DNA from: a virus
Length of the DNA stretch: 26,305 bases
Strand: one strand, 5' to 3'
IMG/VR virus record: IMGVR_UViG_3300008740_000041
Span: 1-26,305 of that record
The translations under genes were made by a program, and so were the position numbers. The notes below the pieces were generated by a model. That model ran no database searches, was not told the origin of the DNA, and saw only the letters and a program-made list of their open reading frames with translations. This document shows, piece by piece, positions 1,307 to 12,820 of the stretch. Every line of letters begins with the position of its first letter. The first letter of the stretch is position 1.

Positions 1307-3442
1307 ATGGCAATAATATATACATATCCATTAGCTACTACAATAGATGCTGACGATACTTTAATACTGTCCAAAACCAATAACAAAAATGCAACAAGAA
1401 CAGTTAAGGTAAGTACTATTGCGGGTTATTTTGGAGTAGCTAATGCATGGAATAGAATTGATGCTAATGGTTCAGGAGTAGTTCAAGCAGTAGGAACTGA
1501 TCAACTACTGAATCTTACTTCAGGATCTTTAACTTTTACAACACCCGCTCCAGATACTATAAATATTGAAGCTCCTCCTGGGGATGGTAATATAGCAGAT
1601 AGGAATTTAACATTCACTAATAATTGGAATGCAGATTTAATAGATTTTACCTGGGAAATTATAGATAGCACTTTGCCTGCTCTTCAACAAAATATAATGT
1701 CATTTGACAAAGATATAATTGGGATAGGTGGAAATGAAAGTGCTTGGAGTATTCCTATCAATGAAAGAAATTTAGGTGGTGCAGTAGATCCAGGAACTGG
1801 TGCAGCTGGTCCTCCTTGGCCTGGTAATATATTCTTAGGTGGAGATAATGCAGGTTCCTCTAGTCATCAATTTTTAGATACATCGATAAGTTTAGGTGTT
1901 AATGCACTACCTTTCGCTGGTCAAACTGATTACTTTGGTACTAGTGGTGCAGGAAGTGAAAATGATACAGAATGTGTAGCTATAGGTTATAATTCTTTAT
2001 TGAATTGGGGAATATTAGGTGCTGTAGGTGGAGAACAAGGTGGACAAAATATTGCTATTGGACCCTACTCTCAGTCTTTAAATCAAGGTTTCGCAACTCC
2101 TACCACAACAGGTTCTTACAATGTTAGTATAGGTGGTCGATCTTTAGAAGACCTTAATGCTGGAGAAATGAATACAGCTTTAGGTCATAATGCAGCGTGG
2201 CTAGCTACAACAGCTAGTCGTAATCTAGTAGCAGGTATGGAAGTAGCCAATGGAGTACCTAATAATGTAGGTACAGGTTATACTCCTGTTGGTTTAGTAT
2301 TAGGATCAGATAATTTAATATTAGGTTATCATGCAGATGTAGATGACACAGAAGGTGCGTTGGTAATAGGTAACGAATCATTCACTGCAAATAGTTTAAT
2401 AGCTGGTGGAGGTCAAGGAGAAGCAGATTATACTTTGGTAATTGGTAACTCTAGTCAATCATTTGGAGAATTTAATTTAGTTATAGGTAATTTAAACACA
2501 CAAGGAGTAGGTGGTATTAACGGTATAAGAGATGCAGGGCTAGGTTTAGCTACCGCTATTGGTCACTCAGCAACAGTATATAATCCCAATCCATTTGCTT
2601 TTCCAGATCAATATACCCACGCTACTGCTATAGGTACTTTTGTAGAAGTAAATGGTTATGCAAATGATGCAATTGGAGAAGCTGCTAAAATAGGTGATCC
2701 TGGTATAATAGCAGAAAGAGATGTAGCAAACAATGTAACTATAGGTAATTATAGTACTTTAATTAGTAATCGATCAGTAAACGTTGGTATTGATTCTAGT
2801 TTAGGTACACCAGGTGCTGGAATTCCAATAGCAGATGCTGTAGCAATTGGTTATGGTAATAACGTACAGTTTAGTGGTGGTGTTTCTTTAGGATCTTTTT
2901 CTGTTCCAATAGCAGATAACGAATTTAGAGTAATGTTAGGTGGTTCACCAGACATAAGTTTAGTTGGACAAGCAGCTGGCTCTGGAATAAATAGTCTTAT
3001 ATCATTAGCGGGTGACTTAGATATAAGGGGTAATAAACTTTATGTAAACCCTGTAGATTCTCCAAATAAACTTACTTTCTTTTACGAACAAGTTGAATTT
3101 AGAGGACAAACTAACGCTCAACAAGAGACTGCGGGAATTATTACCGCTGCCGCTCCATATGCACCTGATATGAACAAAGGTGATATATTGAATGTAACTA
3201 TAGATGGAGGAGCCGGACCAGTTATTACTTTTAATGATGCTGATAATAGAACACCAGGTACTTATATATGGATTATCGCGCAAGGTGCTGCTCCAGCTAC
3301 TATAGCTTGGGCGGGTCCTTCTTATCGTTGGCAAGGTGGTGTTCCACCAGTTTTGAGTGTAAACCCAGCAGATGTAGATATTATTACATTTGTTTGTGAT
3401 GATGCGGGGAATATGTTTGGATCGGCTATAACAGGATTTTAA
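1307..3442 (+). CDS. Tail fibre / adhesin with YadA-head-like beta-roll repeats (711 aa)
   Basis: Probable virion fibre for host attachment. The N-terminus (residues about 10-43, DADDTLILSKTNNKNATRTV) resembles the short adaptor segment seen at the start of many phage fibres. From about residue 190 to 545 there are roughly 15 repeats around a [A/V/L]-[I/L]-G core (CVAIGYNS, NIAIGPYS, NVSIGGRS, TALGHNA, LVIGNES, LVIGNSS, TAIGHSA, VTIGNYS, VAIGYGN, VSLGSFS). This is the periodicity of trimeric-autotransporter head domains (left-handed parallel beta-roll). The last 60 residues (TYIWIIAQG, YRWQGGVPPVL, DIITFV) match a C-terminal motif common on phage fibres. It is probably a trimer. The fibre call is firm; the receptor is unknown. 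The next gene starts on the base after its stop. Confidence 0.8.
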   Translation: MAIIYTYPLATTIDADDTLILSKTNNKNATRTVKVSTIAGYFGVANAWNRIDANGSGVVQAVGTDQLLNLTSGSLTFTTPAPDTINIEAPPGDGNIADRNLTFTNNWNADLIDFTWEIIDSTLPALQQNIMSFDKDIIGIGGNESAWSIPINERNLGGAVDPGTGAAGPPWPGNIFLGGDNAGSSSHQFLDTSISLGVNALPFAGQTDYFGTSGAGSENDTECVAIGYNSLLNWGILGAVGGEQGGQNIAIGPYSQSLNQGFATPTTTGSYNVSIGGRSLEDLNAGEMNTALGHNAAWLATTASRNLVAGMEVANGVPNNVGTGYTPVGLVLGSDNLILGYHADVDDTEGALVIGNESFTANSLIAGGGQGEADYTLVIGNSSQSFGEFNLVIGNLNTQGVGGINGIRDAGLGLATAIGHSATVYNPNPFAFPDQYTHATAIGTFVEVNGYANDAIGEAAKIGDPGIIAERDVANNVTIGNYSTLISNRSVNVGIDSSLGTPGAGIPIADAVAIGYGNNVQFSGGVSLGSFSVPIADNEFRVMLGGSPDISLVGQAAGSGINSLISLAGDLDIRGNKLYVNPVDSPNKLTFFYEQVEFRGQTNAQQETAGIITAAAPYAPDMNKGDILNVTIDGGAGPVITFNDADNRTPGTYIWIIAQGAAPATIAWAGPSYRWQGGVPPVLSVNPADVDIITFVCDDAGNMFGSAITGF

Positions 3443-4373: not shown

Positions 4374-4401
4374 AATAAATTTAACTTAATTTAATCAAAT
4401 G
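4373..4401 (+). promoter_or_regulatory. A/T-only leader before groEL
   Basis: The stretch AAAATAAATTTAA (4372-4384) just upstream of groEL recurs at 8631-8643 ahead of the gene at 8648. A related 16-mer stands before the gene at 11733. It is probably a translation-initiation leader in a host that does not use Shine-Dalgarno pairing. A promoter role cannot be excluded. Confidence 0.35.
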
Positions 4402-5955
4402 AATGAAACAATTGTTAAGCATCTTAACTTCGGTATAGATGCTAGAGATAAAGTGTTTGAAGGTATAGAGAAACTAACAAAAGCAGTTAGTTCTACTTTA
4501 GGTGCTAGTGGTAAATGTGTAATATTAGAAGATCAACACGGTAATCCTCAAATTACTAAAGATGGTGTTACAGTAGCAAATAGTATTATATTATTAGACC
4601 CAGTAGAAAATATGGGATCTAAATTATTAAAGGAAGCTGCTAGAAATACAGTGAAAGAAGCTGGAGATGGAACAACAACTGCTACGGTTCTAGCTTATGC
4701 TATTTTATGTGAAGCATATAAATATATAGAAAAAGAAACTCCTAGAAATTTAAAACTAGGAATTAACAAAGCTGTAGAAAAAGTAATTAAATATTTAGAA
4801 ACTAACTCTTCTAAAGTAAAAGGTAAGAAAATAGAACAAGTTGCTACCATTTCTGCTAATAACGATAACGAATTAGGTCAAATAATAGGGGAAGCATTCA
4901 AACAAGTGGATGAGACGGGATTAGTGATGATGGAAACTAATGATGAACCTTTAACGTATGTAGAGAGTATAGAAGGAGTGCAATATGAGCGTGGATTAAA
5001 GAATGATCACTTTATAACCAACAAAGGTAAAGGTACAGCAGAGTTAATTAACCCATTAGTATTAATAGTAGAAACCCCTATAGAAAACATTAGAAAAATT
5101 CAAAGTGTTTTAGAACATGTAATAAAAAATAAGCGTTCATTACTAATTATAGGTGATACTGATCCTCAAGTTGTAAATGCTTTAGCCATGAATAAGGTTA
5201 ATGGTCATATAAAGGTTAATGTAGTTGATGCACCTGTATATGGAATAAGTAAGAGAGATACTTTAGATGATTTAGCATTATTAACCAAAGCTACTATAAT
5301 AAATGAAGATCTAGGTGATGATATGGATATGATTGATATAAGTCACTTAGGAGAATGTAATAAGAGTACTACTACTAGAAGCGATACTATATTACAAGTT
5401 GAAGACTATGATACGGAAGTAGAATCTTTAATTGAATCTTTAAAAGAACGAATAAGAAAAGCTGGTCATAAAGCCATTGTTAAGAATTTAGAAAAAAGAT
5501 TAGCTCGACTGTGTGCAAAAGTTGCTATAGTTAAAGTAGGTGCTAATTCTGAAGTAGAGTTAAAAGAAAAAAGAGATAGAGTCGAAGATGCGATTTGTGC
5601 TACAAAAGCCGCGGTTAAAGAGGGTATAGTACCTGGAGGAGGTATTGCATTATTAAATGCTTCCTCAACTATTAAAGCAGAATCTATAGGTGAACAAGTG
5701 TTATTAGAAGCAATTAAAGCTCCTTACAATATTATCTTGGAAAATGCTGGTATAGATGATTACGAACCACCAACAATAAAAGGTAGAGGATTAGATGTGG
5801 TTACAGGCAAAACAGTAAGTATGGTAAAGTCCGGAATAATAGATCCACTGCTTGTTACAAAAAGTGCGTTACGAAACGCGGCTTCAGTAGCCACTACCAT
5901 TTTGTCGACTGATTGTGTAATTAATAATTTAAGAGCACATGAGAGCGATAGGTAA
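4399..5955 (+). CDS. groEL: GroEL-type chaperonin (518 aa)
   Basis: ATP-driven group I chaperonin subunit, expected to form rings that fold phage (probably capsid or tail) proteins in the cytoplasm. By comparison with E. coli GroEL, the equatorial ATP-site motifs are present: ITKDGVTV (K54, D55), GDGTTTATV (D90, equivalent to D87), RVEDA (D397, equivalent to catalytic D398), PGGGIAL (413-415) and GIIDPLLVTKSALRNAASVA (Asp in the D495 position). The apical domain is about 190-370. The chain stops at NNLRAHESDR, so the flexible GGM-repeat tail is missing. Several apical positions that bind substrate and GroES differ (Y199 is Leu, L200 is Lys, Y203 is His, L234 is Gln). It overlaps groES by 17 nt. 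The gene's AT-rich codon use matches its neighbours, so it is not a recent host acquisition. Confidence 0.95.
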   Translation: MNETIVKHLNFGIDARDKVFEGIEKLTKAVSSTLGASGKCVILEDQHGNPQITKDGVTVANSIILLDPVENMGSKLLKEAARNTVKEAGDGTTTATVLAYAILCEAYKYIEKETPRNLKLGINKAVEKVIKYLETNSSKVKGKKIEQVATISANNDNELGQIIGEAFKQVDETGLVMMETNDEPLTYVESIEGVQYERGLKNDHFITNKGKGTAELINPLVLIVETPIENIRKIQSVLEHVIKNKRSLLIIGDTDPQVVNALAMNKVNGHIKVNVVDAPVYGISKRDTLDDLALLTKATIINEDLGDDMDMIDISHLGECNKSTTTRSDTILQVEDYDTEVESLIESLKERIRKAGHKAIVKNLEKRLARLCAKVAIVKVGANSEVELKEKRDRVEDAICATKAAVKEGIVPGGGIALLNASSTIKAESIGEQVLLEAIKAPYNIILENAGIDDYEPPTIKGRGLDVVTGKTVSMVKSGIIDPLLVTKSALRNAASVATTILSTDCVINNLRAHESDR

Positions 5956-6199
5956 ACATATAATTTTAAAAGAAACTAAAGAAAGTGGTACTTTAACTGC
6001 TGGAGGTTTAGAACTCGGAGAAAAACACCGAGAAGATATAAGATATAGAAAAGGTACAGTAGCGTTAGTAGGGGAAGAAATAAATGTTATACAAACAGGT
6101 GATGAAATTTATTTTGATAGACACGCTGGTTGTAATTTAGAAGTTAAAGATGATATTTATAGGGTGATAAAAGAACAAGACGTGGTGATAGTGTTATGA
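5939..6199 (+). CDS. groES: GroES-type co-chaperonin (86 aa)
   Basis: Lid subunit for a chaperonin, expected to act as a heptamer capping the GroEL ring. Visible family features are the N-terminal strand (MRAIGKHIILKETKESG), the mobile loop with TAGGLELGEKHRED (about 14-36), the core GTVALVG, the pattern TGDEIYFDRHAG, and an end resembling the YLIMKESDILAVI strand (YRVIKEQDVVIVL). At 86 aa it is slightly shorter than the usual 95-97. The mobile-loop anchor reads LEL where bacterial GroES has IVL, so an acidic residue replaces the middle hydrophobic one. The gene starts inside groEL (17-nt overlap), and the order groEL-groES is the reverse of the usual bacterial operon. Its stop overlaps the next start (ATGA). 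Confidence 0.88.
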   Translation: MRAIGKHIILKETKESGTLTAGGLELGEKHREDIRYRKGTVALVGEEINVIQTGDEIYFDRHAGCNLEVKDDIYRVIKEQDVVIVL

Positions 6200-7195: not shown

Positions 7196-7360
7196 ATGAA
7201 CTTGACTGATGTTAAACTTTACGCTGCAAATACTGGAGCTTTTATGGCTAGTTGTTGTGATTGGTTAGAACCAACGTTAAAAATATTACTTTTAACAGCT
7301 ACATTAGGATATACTTTAAATAGATGGTATGTGTTAAGAAAAAATAATAAAGATGAGTAA
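7196..7360 (+). CDS. Small membrane protein, holin candidate (54 aa)
   Basis: The 54-residue frame begins MNLTDVKLYAANTGAFMA and has one clear hydrophobic segment (about residues 27-41, TLKILLLTATLGYTL), followed by a basic tail (RWYVLRKNNKDE). A second, weaker hydrophobic stretch lies around 14-21. Size, topology and an 8-nt overlap with the downstream amidase gene fit a holin or other membrane lysis protein. Holins are too diverse to confirm by sequence, so the role is inferred from position. Confidence 0.55.
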   Translation: MNLTDVKLYAANTGAFMASCCDWLEPTLKILLLTATLGYTLNRWYVLRKNNKDE

Positions 7361-7970
7361 GAAAATTTGGCTCTTAGATCCCGGACATGGTGGTTTAAAC
7401 CCTGATACAGGTAAATATGTTACCTCAGGTAAACGCTCACCTAAATGGGAAGATGGAAGTCAATATTTTGAAGGGGTTGGAAATAGAGATATTGTAAAAA
7501 AAATTAAAGAAAAGTGTTCTAATGCGGGAATATTAGCGTTAGATATAGTAAATGATTGGCAAGATGTTCCATTATCTACTAGAGTAAATAGAGCAAACGC
7601 TATTTATGCTTATTATAACAATTCAGTATATGTTTCAGTGCATTCTAACGGCTTTAGTAAAGAATCTGCCCATGGATATTCAGTTTACACCTCACCAGGT
7701 CAAACTAAATCAGATAAATACGCAGATATTTTATTAAGTTATATGGAATTAGAATTTCCTGATCATAAACTCAGAAAAGACATGTCAGATTCGGACATGG
7801 ATAAAGAAGCTGCATTCTATGTGCTACGCAAAACAAAAATGCCAGCCATATTGTCAGAGAATTTCTTCATGACAAACAAAAAAGAATGCGATTTATTACT
7901 AACAGATGATTTTAGGGACAGAATAGCAAATTGTCACTTTAAAATGATTAGAAAAATTGAAAATCAATAA
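7353..7970 (+). CDS. N-acetylmuramoyl-L-alanine amidase, phage endolysin (205 aa)
   Basis: Zinc amidase of the Amidase_3/LytC type, cleaving the bond between MurNAc and the L-Ala of the peptide stem at lysis. The expected ligands are visible: H12 in LLDPGHGG, E40 in QYFEGVGN, and H97 in YVSVHSNG. The catalytic Glu is E169 in ILSENFF. The single catalytic domain fills the whole 205 aa. There is no signal peptide and no wall-binding domain, which fits a Gram-negative host and release through a holin. The start overlaps the holin-like gene by 8 nt. Confidence 0.92.
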   Translation: MSKKIWLLDPGHGGLNPDTGKYVTSGKRSPKWEDGSQYFEGVGNRDIVKKIKEKCSNAGILALDIVNDWQDVPLSTRVNRANAIYAYYNNSVYVSVHSNGFSKESAHGYSVYTSPGQTKSDKYADILLSYMELEFPDHKLRKDMSDSDMDKEAAFYVLRKTKMPAILSENFFMTNKKECDLLLTDDFRDRIANCHFKMIRKIENQ

Positions 7971-8471: not shown

Positions 8472-8627
8472 ATGTACGATAAAATAAAAACCGTTGTAAC
8501 AGCTCCATTATTTCACTCAGCGGCAGCTACAGGAATTGGATTTTTAGTGTTGATGCAAGGGAATGTATTATACGCAGGAATGGCGTTTGGAATTGGAATT
8601 TGTAAATTTTTAGACGCATTTAAATAA
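8472..8627 (+). CDS. Small hydrophobic membrane protein (51 aa)
   Basis: I read a frame starting MYDKIKTVVTAPLF and ending CKFLDAFK before TAA, one base after the preceding stop. Nearly all of residues 8-47 is hydrophobic or small, with two candidate membrane helices (about 8-28 and 32-47) joined by a short MQGN turn. This could be a second holin, an antiholin or another small inner-membrane protein. Only the membrane nature is supported directly. Confidence 0.55.
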   Translation: MYDKIKTVVTAPLFHSAAATGIGFLVLMQGNVLYAGMAFGIGICKFLDAFK

Positions 8628-8845: not shown

Positions 8846-9465
8846 TGGCAACAATATTAAAAGGTTATAGAGGAAATAAAACAGGATCCTTTGAAGAGAT
8901 AGATGATATAGCTAGTACTTATGAACCAGGTATCATACCTATGGGCAAAAAGAAAAAAGGAGATCCAAAAGAAGCTGGTGACGTAGAAGCTGCAAAAACA
9001 GCTAAATTTGAAGCTTTAGTTGCTAAAGCAGAAGAGAAAGGATGGAGTGATAAGAAAAGAATGAGGAAAGGCGTTGATGGAAAAGCAAAAGATATATTAG
9101 ATCCATTAAGTAAGAGAGCGGTATTTAAAAAAGGTCAATGGGTTGGAACTAAAGATAAATGGGGAGGAAATTTAAGAAGTGAAGAAACTGGTAAAATCAA
9201 AAAACCACATATTTCTATTGACAAAACTCCAGTAGAAGAAACTAAATCACCACAAGGAAGATTAAATCCTTTTTATAACATGCCTTTGGGAGATAGAATT
9301 AAATCCCGTATACAAGGTAAAGGTCCTAAATCTGATTATTGGGTGGAAGGATTTCAAGCTGATCATCGTCCTGGAACTCCTTATCAAACGACACAAGGAA
9401 AGCATGGAGATCTTCCTACTGGAAAAACAAAAACAAAAAGAAAAATAAACATAGATTGGTACTAG
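8845..9465 (+). CDS. Hypothetical basic protein (206 aa)
   Basis: Not recognised. It is Lys- and Gly-rich, with basic clusters (MGKKKKGDPKE at 32-42, DKKRMRKGVDGKAK around 69-82, KTKTKRKIN at the end), low hydrophobicity and several Pro. It looks mostly unstructured or nucleic-acid/virion associated, with no enzymatic motif. Translation is coupled on both sides, with TAATG at the start and a TAGTG arrangement with the next gene. Confidence 0.7.
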   Translation: MATILKGYRGNKTGSFEEIDDIASTYEPGIIPMGKKKKGDPKEAGDVEAAKTAKFEALVAKAEEKGWSDKKRMRKGVDGKAKDILDPLSKRAVFKKGQWVGTKDKWGGNLRSEETGKIKKPHISIDKTPVEETKSPQGRLNPFYNMPLGDRIKSRIQGKGPKSDYWVEGFQADHRPGTPYQTTQGKHGDLPTGKTKTKRKINIDWY

Positions 9466-9668
9466 TGAAAGACGGGGTAAAAAATGTAATTACTAATATC
9501 ATTGGTTTAATTATATTAGGAATAAATATTTATATGTTCTATTGGGGTGAATTAGAATTAACACCTTTTTTAGTTATACTATGTGTGTCTCTATCTTTAT
9601 TTCTATTTAAAGGATCAAAAACAAAAGAATGGCTATCAAAAGGATTATCAAAAATTATATCCAAGTAG
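9465..9668 (+). CDS. Small two-helix membrane protein, holin candidate (67 aa)
   Basis: Two hydrophobic helices (roughly IIGLIILGINIYMFYW and LTPFLVILCVSLSLFLF) are joined by a short acidic loop (GELE), with a basic C-terminal tail (KTKEWLSKGLSKIISK). This is a typical small holin-like shape. I chose GTG at 9465 because it overlaps the preceding TAG by one base, just as TAATG does elsewhere in this operon; a TTG at 9456 would add three residues. It lies directly before the spanin-like gene (40-nt overlap), which supports a lysis role. Confidence 0.6.
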   Translation: MKDGVKNVITNIIGLIILGINIYMFYWGELELTPFLVILCVSLSLFLFKGSKTKEWLSKGLSKIISK

Positions 9669-10078
9669 TACTACTAACATTAATATTAGTAGGATGTTCG
9701 CCACAAAAAAGATTAAATAGACTAATTACTCGTTATCCTCAACTATCTCAAATGGATACATTGATAGTGAGGGATACAGTGGTGATAGAAACGTATAATC
9801 ATGACACTATAACTTTATTAGAATTTCACGATACTACTACGGTAATAAACAATGAAAAAGTTATATTAAAATATTTTTACGACACTTTACGAGAAGTTAT
9901 ACACCATGAGGTAGAGTGTTTAGGAGATACTGTGTATACTGAAAAACTAGTTACAGTAGAAAAAGCAGTGTTTCGTGAATTGTCATGGTGGGATAAATAC
10001 AAAGAATTTATATACATAGCGCTAGTATTACTGTTGGTGCTAATAGTTTTAAAAAAAATAGGTAAACTAGCATTATAA
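9629..10078 (+). CDS. Lipoprotein with C-terminal membrane anchor, probable unimolecular spanin (149 aa)
   Basis: It is likely to disrupt the outer membrane at the end of lysis. Residues 1-23 form a signal peptide with lipobox LVGC (acylated C23), followed by SPQ with no Asp at +2, consistent with outer-membrane sorting. Residues 24-120 are a hydrophilic periplasmic span with repeated T/V-rich strands (DTLIVRDTVVIE, HDTITLLEFHDTT, GDTVYTEKLVTVEK). Residues about 126-141 (EFIYIALVLLLVLIVL) form a transmembrane helix, then a basic end KKIGKLAL. An N-terminal lipid anchor plus a C-terminal inner-membrane helix is the defining layout of u-spanins such as phage T1 gp11. Similar lipoproteins are common in phages of Bacteroidota. 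Confidence 0.72.
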   Translation: MAIKRIIKNYIQVVLLTLILVGCSPQKRLNRLITRYPQLSQMDTLIVRDTVVIETYNHDTITLLEFHDTTTVINNEKVILKYFYDTLREVIHHEVECLGDTVYTEKLVTVEKAVFRELSWWDKYKEFIYIALVLLLVLIVLKKIGKLAL

Positions 10079-11996: not shown

Positions 11997-12219
11997 TATA
12001 AGAAAAATTAGTATTGGATCTGATTATAAGAATGATGCTATGCATTATTCAGTGGGTCAAGAAGTTTATGGTGGACATAGGATTTGTAATATTTTACATA
12101 ATGAAGAAAGTAGTTCATATACAGTTTGGATAAGTAAAAATGAAGAAGTTTTACCTTGGAAAAATTTTAATTCAAATATGGCTATTGCAGTAGAATATGA
12201 CTTAGAATATAATGAATAG
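11986..12219 (+). CDS. Small hypothetical protein (77 aa)
   Basis: I prefer the ATG at 11986 (MSNNIRKISIGSDYK) over a TTG nine bases upstream, because ATG starts dominate here and the overlap is shorter. The protein has mixed beta character, with YSVGQEVYGGHRICNILHNE, then SSYTVWISKNEEVLPWKNF, and an acidic end (EYDLEYNE). This resembles a small SH3-like barrel, but I cannot name the family. It overlaps the next gene by 8 nt. Confidence 0.65.
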   Translation: MSNNIRKISIGSDYKNDAMHYSVGQEVYGGHRICNILHNEESSSYTVWISKNEEVLPWKNFNSNMAIAVEYDLEYNE

Positions 12220-12820
12220 TCTCTATGATTTTATAATTACTCCAGTTGATGGTCGCTATAATAACACAAAAAAGATAGGTGATAAAACTTTAATATTAAA
12301 TACAAGTATTGAAGATTTTAAAGCAATAAATAAAGAAGGTATAGTGTTAAAAACTCCTTTAGCATTTAAATCACCTATTGAAGTAGGAGACCGAGTAATG
12401 GTTCATCATAATATATTTAGAAGATTCTACAATATAAAAGGTAAAGAACAAAATAGTAGATCTTATTTTAAGGAAGACATGTATTTCTGTAGTATGGATC
12501 AACTTTATTTATATAAGAAAAAAGATCAATGGAATGGTTTTTTAGATAGATGTTTTGTTCAACCTATAAAAGAAAATAATAAATACCGAATTAACCCAAC
12601 TAAACCTAATATAGGAATTATAAAATATAACAATTCTAAATTAAAAAAATTAGGTATAGAAGTAGGGTCGTTAGTTTCTTTTAAAAAAGAAAGAGAATTT
12701 GAGTTTGTGATAGATAACGAATTACTCTATTGTATGAAATTAAATGATATAGTTATAGAACATGAATACGAAGGAAACGAAGAAAAATATAATCCTAGCT
12801 GGGCAAGTTGCGGTAGATGA
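12212..12820 (+). CDS. Two-domain GroES-like protein (202 aa)
   Basis: Two tandem segments follow the GroES barrel pattern. In residues 43-103: GIVLKTPLAF, then IEVGDRVMVHHN, then FKEDMYFCSMDQLYLYKK. In residues 135-185: GIIKYNNSKLKKLG, then IEVGSLVSFKKEREFEFVID, then ELLYCMKLNDIVIEHEY. This matches the family order G-x-V, then VKVGDxVxF, then Y-x-x-M-x-x-xDIxAI. A short mobile-loop-like stretch may lie near residues 15-42. The protein ends EKYNPSWASCGR. It could be a diverged co-chaperonin working with the phage or host GroEL, or a structural derivative. Its last 59 nt overlap the next gene. The fold call is moderate and rests on pattern only. Confidence 0.5.
   Translation: MNSLYDFIITPVDGRYNNTKKIGDKTLILNTSIEDFKAINKEGIVLKTPLAFKSPIEVGDRVMVHHNIFRRFYNIKGKEQNSRSYFKEDMYFCSMDQLYLYKKKDQWNGFLDRCFVQPIKENNKYRINPTKPNIGIIKYNNSKLKKLGIEVGSLVSFKKEREFEFVIDNELLYCMKLNDIVIEHEYEGNEEKYNPSWASCGR

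Follow-up and report, generated by a model that had tools for sequence, protein, structure and literature searches.

A candidate one-piece spanin displaying a constant periplasmic cysteine was found in IMGVR_UViG_3300008740_000041, a single IMG/VR record of 26,305 bases (the window, meaning the whole stretch of DNA that was analyzed). By architecture and context, the 149-residue protein encoded at 9629–10078 on the plus strand is very probably a unimolecular spanin (u-spanin), with a probability of roughly 0.88. Its two membrane anchors, its position in a lysis cassette, and purifying selection on its gene argue for this assignment and uphold what had been proposed from the sequence alone. As judged by sequence searches, the protein represents a new family, and what sets that family apart from known u-spanins is the constant cysteine. 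From the sequence pattern, the odds appear evenly balanced that this widespread family acts as a disulfide-linked homodimer, the redox state of which could gate or time membrane fusion.

The window terminase matches 90 phage records (top match MW202828.1 at 63%), comprising 68 from Flavobacterium, 15 from Cellulophaga, 2 from Tenacibaculum, 1 from Maribacter, and 4 that are uncultured or unnamed. These relatives support the Bacteroidota host suggested earlier and, together with PHROG matches of the portal and one virion protein, make a podovirus-like phage of Bacteroidota a fair reading of the window. The phage carries GroEL and GroES genes (4399–5955 and 5939–6199) with relatives in MW202828 and elemo. 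It may also encode a second GroES-like protein at 12212–12820, before the terminase gene, where the elemo relative is annotated as co-chaperonin GroES. A 711-residue protein (1307–3442) contains short recurring motifs such as IAIG / VALG / LVIGN, which we take to be reminiscent of trimeric adhesin head repeats, and is probably a fibre.

Anchors and predicted fold

The spanin gene begins with ATG in an open frame of 155 codons, and its coordinates, frame, and start had been called correctly. Residues 1–23 (9629–9697, plus strand, as are all features of the gene) form a putative lipoprotein signal in which a positive n-region and a hydrophobic stretch lead to the lipobox LVGC, ending at C23, the presumed acylated residue. 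This lipobox had already been pointed out, and its cysteine column holds Cys in all 59 rows of the family alignment. No acidic run follows C23, and SPQKRL or TPQKRL is found in 38 of the 59 rows. The predicted periplasmic part, residues 24–119 (9698–9985; a span of ∼96 residues), is delineated by AlphaFold and conservation as a helix at 25–35 followed by six predicted strands with D-T pairs, and it includes the single periplasmic cysteine, C97 (codon TGT, 9917–9919, placed by its alignment column). A Trp-rich juxtamembrane stretch, a C-terminal transmembrane (TM) helix (residues 120–148 in AlphaFold, block pLDDT up to 91), and a positive C-tail complete the protein (9986–10072). The TM helix had been placed at about 126–141 and was recovered at 128–144 by hydropathy. 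Its C-terminus is predicted to lie in the cytoplasm. Across the alignment, the tail carries a net positive charge in all 59 rows, and WW stands ahead of the TM (columns 120–121) in 42.

AlphaFold, run with alignment A8 (51 rows), returned a model with a mean pLDDT of 67.8 and a pTM of 0.28, in which strands at 45–53, 56–58, 71–74, 78–85, 90–97, and 100–108 lie between the two helices; an alignment of 22 rows gave a poor model (mean pLDDT 45.6). At moderate confidence, the periplasmic part is modeled as a short helix with a predominantly beta-stranded remainder. The repeated D-T strands noted in the sequence-only reading hold up in that six D-T pairs are present (43/44, 49/50, 59/60, 68/69, 85/86, and 100/101), most of them among the top conserved periplasmic columns, while the beta character itself is supported at the moderate confidence of the model. 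Foldseek retrieved no PDB match at an E value of 0.001 or better; from BFVD, it retrieved three unnamed viral proteins (61, 26, and 27% identity), the rest being noise.

The combination of both anchors is rare enough among the ORFs of the window and of the family loci to be more than chance. By simple rules, a lipobox with a C-terminal TM was found in 1 of 62 window ORFs of at least 50 residues, namely 9629–10078, and in 18 of 593 ORFs of at least 60 residues in the family loci, all 18 of which are family members. These rules miss real cases (14 reference stretches with 1169 ORFs gave 4 hits, 2 of which look real, with the phi13:2 candidate recovered by looser rules after having been missed) and also give spurious ones, such as the minus-strand ORFs L149 and L231, which were dropped from 27 distinct hits as not credible. 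By the same rules, the window contains no other spanin candidate, and neither the window nor its 59.9 kb relative G002 contains another lipoprotein. Two short extra lipobox ORFs in G001 (62 and 50 residues) were judged spurious, and among four others in G003, two on the minus strand (100 and 66 residues) resemble real small lipoproteins.

Lysis cassette and proposed action

Gene context supports placing the candidate spanin gene in a lysis cassette. An Amidase_3 endolysin (N-acetylmuramoyl-L-alanine amidase; 7353–7970, plus strand; Pfam E 5.4e-26, PHROG endolysin E 5.8e-34) ends 1.66 kb upstream of the spanin gene, with other genes between. The spanin gene is itself overlapped by 40 nt by a holin-like ORF with two hydrophobic stretches, predicted to be two TMs (9465–9668, plus strand, starting from GTG at 9465 or TTG at 9456). 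Two further plus-strand ORFs are holin or antiholin candidates: a 54-residue, one-TM ORF (7196–7360), which overlaps the endolysin start and has relatives preceding the endolysin in many family loci, and a 51-residue membrane ORF (8472–8627), relatives of which also occur in many family loci. None of these three small ORFs gave a significant family match in searches that included PHROGs and Pfam.

The same association recurs across the family. Among loci with at least 1.5 kb of upstream DNA, an endolysin lies upstream of the spanin in 38 of 44 (20 Amidase_2, 10 Amidase_3, and 8 M15), at distances of −34 to 2970 nt before the spanin; the queries used found no endolysin in the other 6. In all 46 loci with a match, the best endolysin match is on the strand of the spanin, and ten examples were confirmed in Pfam. 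A compact order of endolysin, TM protein, and spanin is seen (e.g., L076, 2419–2799 / 2814–2993 / 2974–3408). In 46 of 55 loci, the spanin gene overlaps a TM ORF lying upstream; among control ORFs from these loci, 81 of 245 do so. With two or more TMs required of the overlapping upstream ORF, the figures become 30 of 55 and 39 of 245. The TM proteins in this slot are of two unrelated-looking types. Searching with one small holin-like TM protein alone retrieved 43 loci, with a family ORF in 40 of 42 newly examined; such an ORF is present in 28 of 30 new contigs, on either side of the TM gene. This search is partly circular, as its three seed proteins adjoin spanins, although the swapped gene order seen in most new contigs escapes this circularity. 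Within the search, the upstream DNA of L335 amounts to 163 nt, the slot in L330 is taken by a different protein, and the family ORF of L355 is 555 nt away.

In related phages, the slot next to the endolysin or to that same TM protein is occupied by other proteins (L330:957–1556; L042:13391–14014, minus strand; L043:10326–10871; L130:13482–14081; and L135:9235–9783). Their N-terminal TM is followed by a linker rich in D-T and by a C-terminal part resembling a few beta strands. The slot proteins of elemo and BS-TP4 end in Phe, and the C-terminal part of the latter is DUF6808. Judging from these sequences, the slot proteins might be inverted spanins, with the N-terminus in the inner membrane and the beta strands in the outer membrane. 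No paper on DUF6808 or DUF6549 was found in the open-licence literature.

By analogy with T1 gp11 and Rz/Rz1, we infer export, acylation, topology, fusion, and a part in lysis for the 9629–10078 protein. One molecule would span the periplasm through the peptidoglycan mesh. Once the holin had opened the inner membrane and the amidase had removed the wall, the extended beta-rich part would gain freedom of movement and could associate with neighboring molecules. Its collapse would then draw the membranes together and fuse them, removing the outer-membrane barrier so that phages burst out.

A family with one periplasmic cysteine

Successive searches of viral contigs retrieved 9, then 32, then 93 relatives, of which 80 were kept; 78 full-length members collapse to 59 distinct sequences. 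The alignment of 59 rows, from which L064 (frame broken) and L116 (incomplete) were removed and to which L112 and L121 were added, spans 29–99% identity with a median of 49%. The start codons of diverged members were assigned by script as guesses, with 17 TTG, 2 GTG, and one misread start in the set of 59. The spanin frame of L037:5001–5403 is broken after ∼100 codons at the same place as that of L064, by either a sequencing error or a real change. Purifying selection is apparent from 142 pairs at 70–95% identity (median dN/dS 0.126, range 0.046–0.345), computed without the first 20 aligned codons since genes overlap there.

Homology searches place this family away from named ones. In the phages collection, tblastn found no match at E values of up to 0.1 for the window protein, up to 10 for L036, or up to 1 for L122; profile A2 found no relative in the genome contigs and no match in MW202828 and elemo, the latter search having been run without a positive control. 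The window protein matched PHROG 812 "Rz-like spanin" at a nonsignificant E value of 0.19, with nothing above cutoff in Pfam or NCBIfam, and no scanned member gave a significant profile match to known spanin families in PHROGs, Pfam, or NCBIfam. The top match among scanned members was that of L101 to phrog_5595 (function unknown; E 0.0017). This 243-position profile matches the small TM protein (∼12–77) and the periplasmic part of the spanin (∼140–230), which are collinear in G003, and might possibly represent a fused holin–spanin protein elsewhere; among 16 records searched for such a fusion, only separate ORFs matched. With the family profile, a lysis gene that as yet lacks a name could be annotated in many marine viral contigs, and the profile offers a sensitive handle on the adjoining small holin-like genes.

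The conserved periplasmic cysteine went unmentioned in the sequence-only reading. Exactly one Cys lies between lipobox and TM in each of the 59 rows, and in 58 it occupies the C97 column (34 TGT and 24 TGC codons), about three-quarters of the way from lipid to helix. The exception, L117, has Leu at 97 and its single Cys at residue 70. The C97 column retains Cys in 8 of 8 representatives after collapsing at 50% identity and in 18 of 19 at 70%, and 21 of 21 distinct rows found later likewise carry one periplasmic Cys. With one odd cysteine per chain, no intrachain partner, and C23 presumably lipidated, either an intermolecular disulfide or a free thiol is to be expected, the disulfide being the most likely state of C97. 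Two covalently joined copies would then form the working unit, a homodimer like those of two-component spanins.

The alternative for C97 is that the protein is a u-spanin in which this residue forms no disulfide, remaining a free thiol or serving a structural or metal-binding role, and the protein acts as a noncovalent oligomer as proposed for T1 gp11. We regard this as a sizable possibility, short of an even chance. It gains from published u-spanins, which work without a periplasmic Cys in the accounts available, and from a survey of candidates around related amidases, in which 13 of 25 credible distinct u-spanins have no periplasmic Cys and 12 have one. That the cysteine is not universal among such candidates, or among five from Bacteroidota phages listed in SpaninDB (0 of 5), weakens the case for the dimer. 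Moreover, H93 is nearly invariant in the family (0.97), so that a His-Cys site could be envisaged; in sister alignment A6 (hhalign E 1e-24), however, the Cys is present in all 3 rows and the neighboring His is not conserved. The relocation of Cys from 97 to 70 in L117, with one still present in every row, is easier to reconcile with an intermolecular link than with a site fixed in one place. In 4 of the 12 Cys-bearing candidates, these 4 being of a different family, the cysteine lies just before the TM; L256, L257, L258, and L278 show this arrangement within an otherwise cysteine-less u-spanin group beside related amidases.

Readings in which the protein is not a u-spanin fare worse. It is unlikely to be a lipoprotein tethered to the membrane that serves some other late purpose, superinfection exclusion or envelope anchoring for instance, and sits near lysis genes by chance. 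Such a role would agree with the lack of any significant match to a spanin family and with the weak matches of similar Bacteroidota-phage lipoproteins to the Cor superinfection-exclusion PHROG (L209, E 0.0065; L076, E 0.3), but these are limited to the first 40–50 residues, comprising the signal and lipobox. Furthermore, the gene accompanies endolysins of three classes and both types of small holin-like protein, and lipobox/TM rules reveal no alternative spanin candidate in the window. Very improbable is the idea that the protein is the outer-membrane half of a two-component spanin, its C-terminal helix being incidental and its inner-membrane partner encoded elsewhere. The window is a 26 kb fragment, and a partner gene could lie outside it, but the C-terminal TM helix and positive tail are kept across the family, and lipobox rules find no second lipoprotein in the window or in G002. 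An o-spanin is a lipoprotein without a TM that acts with a separate i-spanin, whereas this protein has a C-terminal TM.

Comparison with known spanins

The u-spanin layout in Bacteroidota phages is already on record, and the sequence-only reading was mistaken in holding that little about it had been described for these hosts. Table 5 of PMC6139136 (SpaninDB) lists phi13:2, phi18:3, phi19:3, phi12:1, RAP44, 11b, and FCL-2, among others; a passage of PMC12596118 states that Bacteroidetes phages use u-spanins exclusively; and u-spanins are named in Cellulophaga phages Ingeline and Nekkels in the relevant passage of PMC8776804. Since that table gives phage names only, the SpaninDB-phage candidates compared here were picked by architecture. 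Those from 11b, FCL-2, RAP44, phi12:1, and phi13:2 share host phylum and architecture with the window family, and all except the FCL-2 candidate adjoin an endolysin, as the window family does. Their sequences differ from it, and all five lack a periplasmic Cys (the phi12:1 candidate being partial).

The Ingeline and Nekkels candidates also display this architecture, with no sequence similarity to the window family by clustering; the available text of PMC8776804 does not specify which ORF is meant. Those picked here, Nekkels_1 (40598–41071; L124–L126) and Ingeline_1 (32052–32525; L123), are annotated as hypothetical proteins and have exactly one periplasmic Cys each. This had given rise to the idea that a single Cys is general to Bacteroidota u-spanins, which was rejected given the Cys-less candidates (13 of 25 and 5 of 5). 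Closer to the window family is a sister group from marine viral contigs (L282, L290, and L292; L329–L348; L355), which shares the C-(S/T)-P-Q head, P-x-L, D-T pairs, the Cys-x-D-T motif, and the C-terminal TM. It differs in that the TM gene follows the spanin gene in some members and H93 is not kept in A6.

The prototype u-spanin, T1 gp11, resembles the window protein in its lipobox, short helix followed by a beta-rich part, aromatic pre-TM stretch, C-terminal TM, and positive tail; the relevant passage of PMC6139136 gives the T1 gp11 family a short helix and then four or more strands. No homology is detectable over the periplasmic part. The family HMM matches T1 gp11 weakly (E 0.0028 among 5291 segments) via the two anchor ends, neither of which is significant alone. 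T1 gp11 has no Cys between lipobox and TM, its other Cys after the lipobox lying in the TM, whereas the window family has C97. Passages of the survey PMC6139136 report 58 of 58 u-spanins without a periplasmic Cys and take this lack to mean that the mechanism of u-spanins is fundamentally unlike that of Rz/Rz1; the observation is repeated in a passage of the review PMC7830690. Lack of a periplasmic cysteine is a property of that published set rather than part of the u-spanin definition, and the window family departs from it. No report of a cysteine-bearing u-spanin family was found in the available text of the open-licence literature.

A family with a constant Cys makes the conclusion of PMC6139136 on the mechanism by which one-piece spanins disrupt the outer membrane directly testable by a single substitution. 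Rz/Rz1 have the same proposed job, and their periplasmic Cys forms covalent homodimers, according to the accounts available. The difference is that Rz/Rz1 are two proteins with a coiled-coil inner subunit, whereas the window system would be one protein with predicted strands. If the disulfide-linked homodimer is real, the covalent-dimer rule, said to be limited to two-component spanins, would also govern a class of one-piece spanins.
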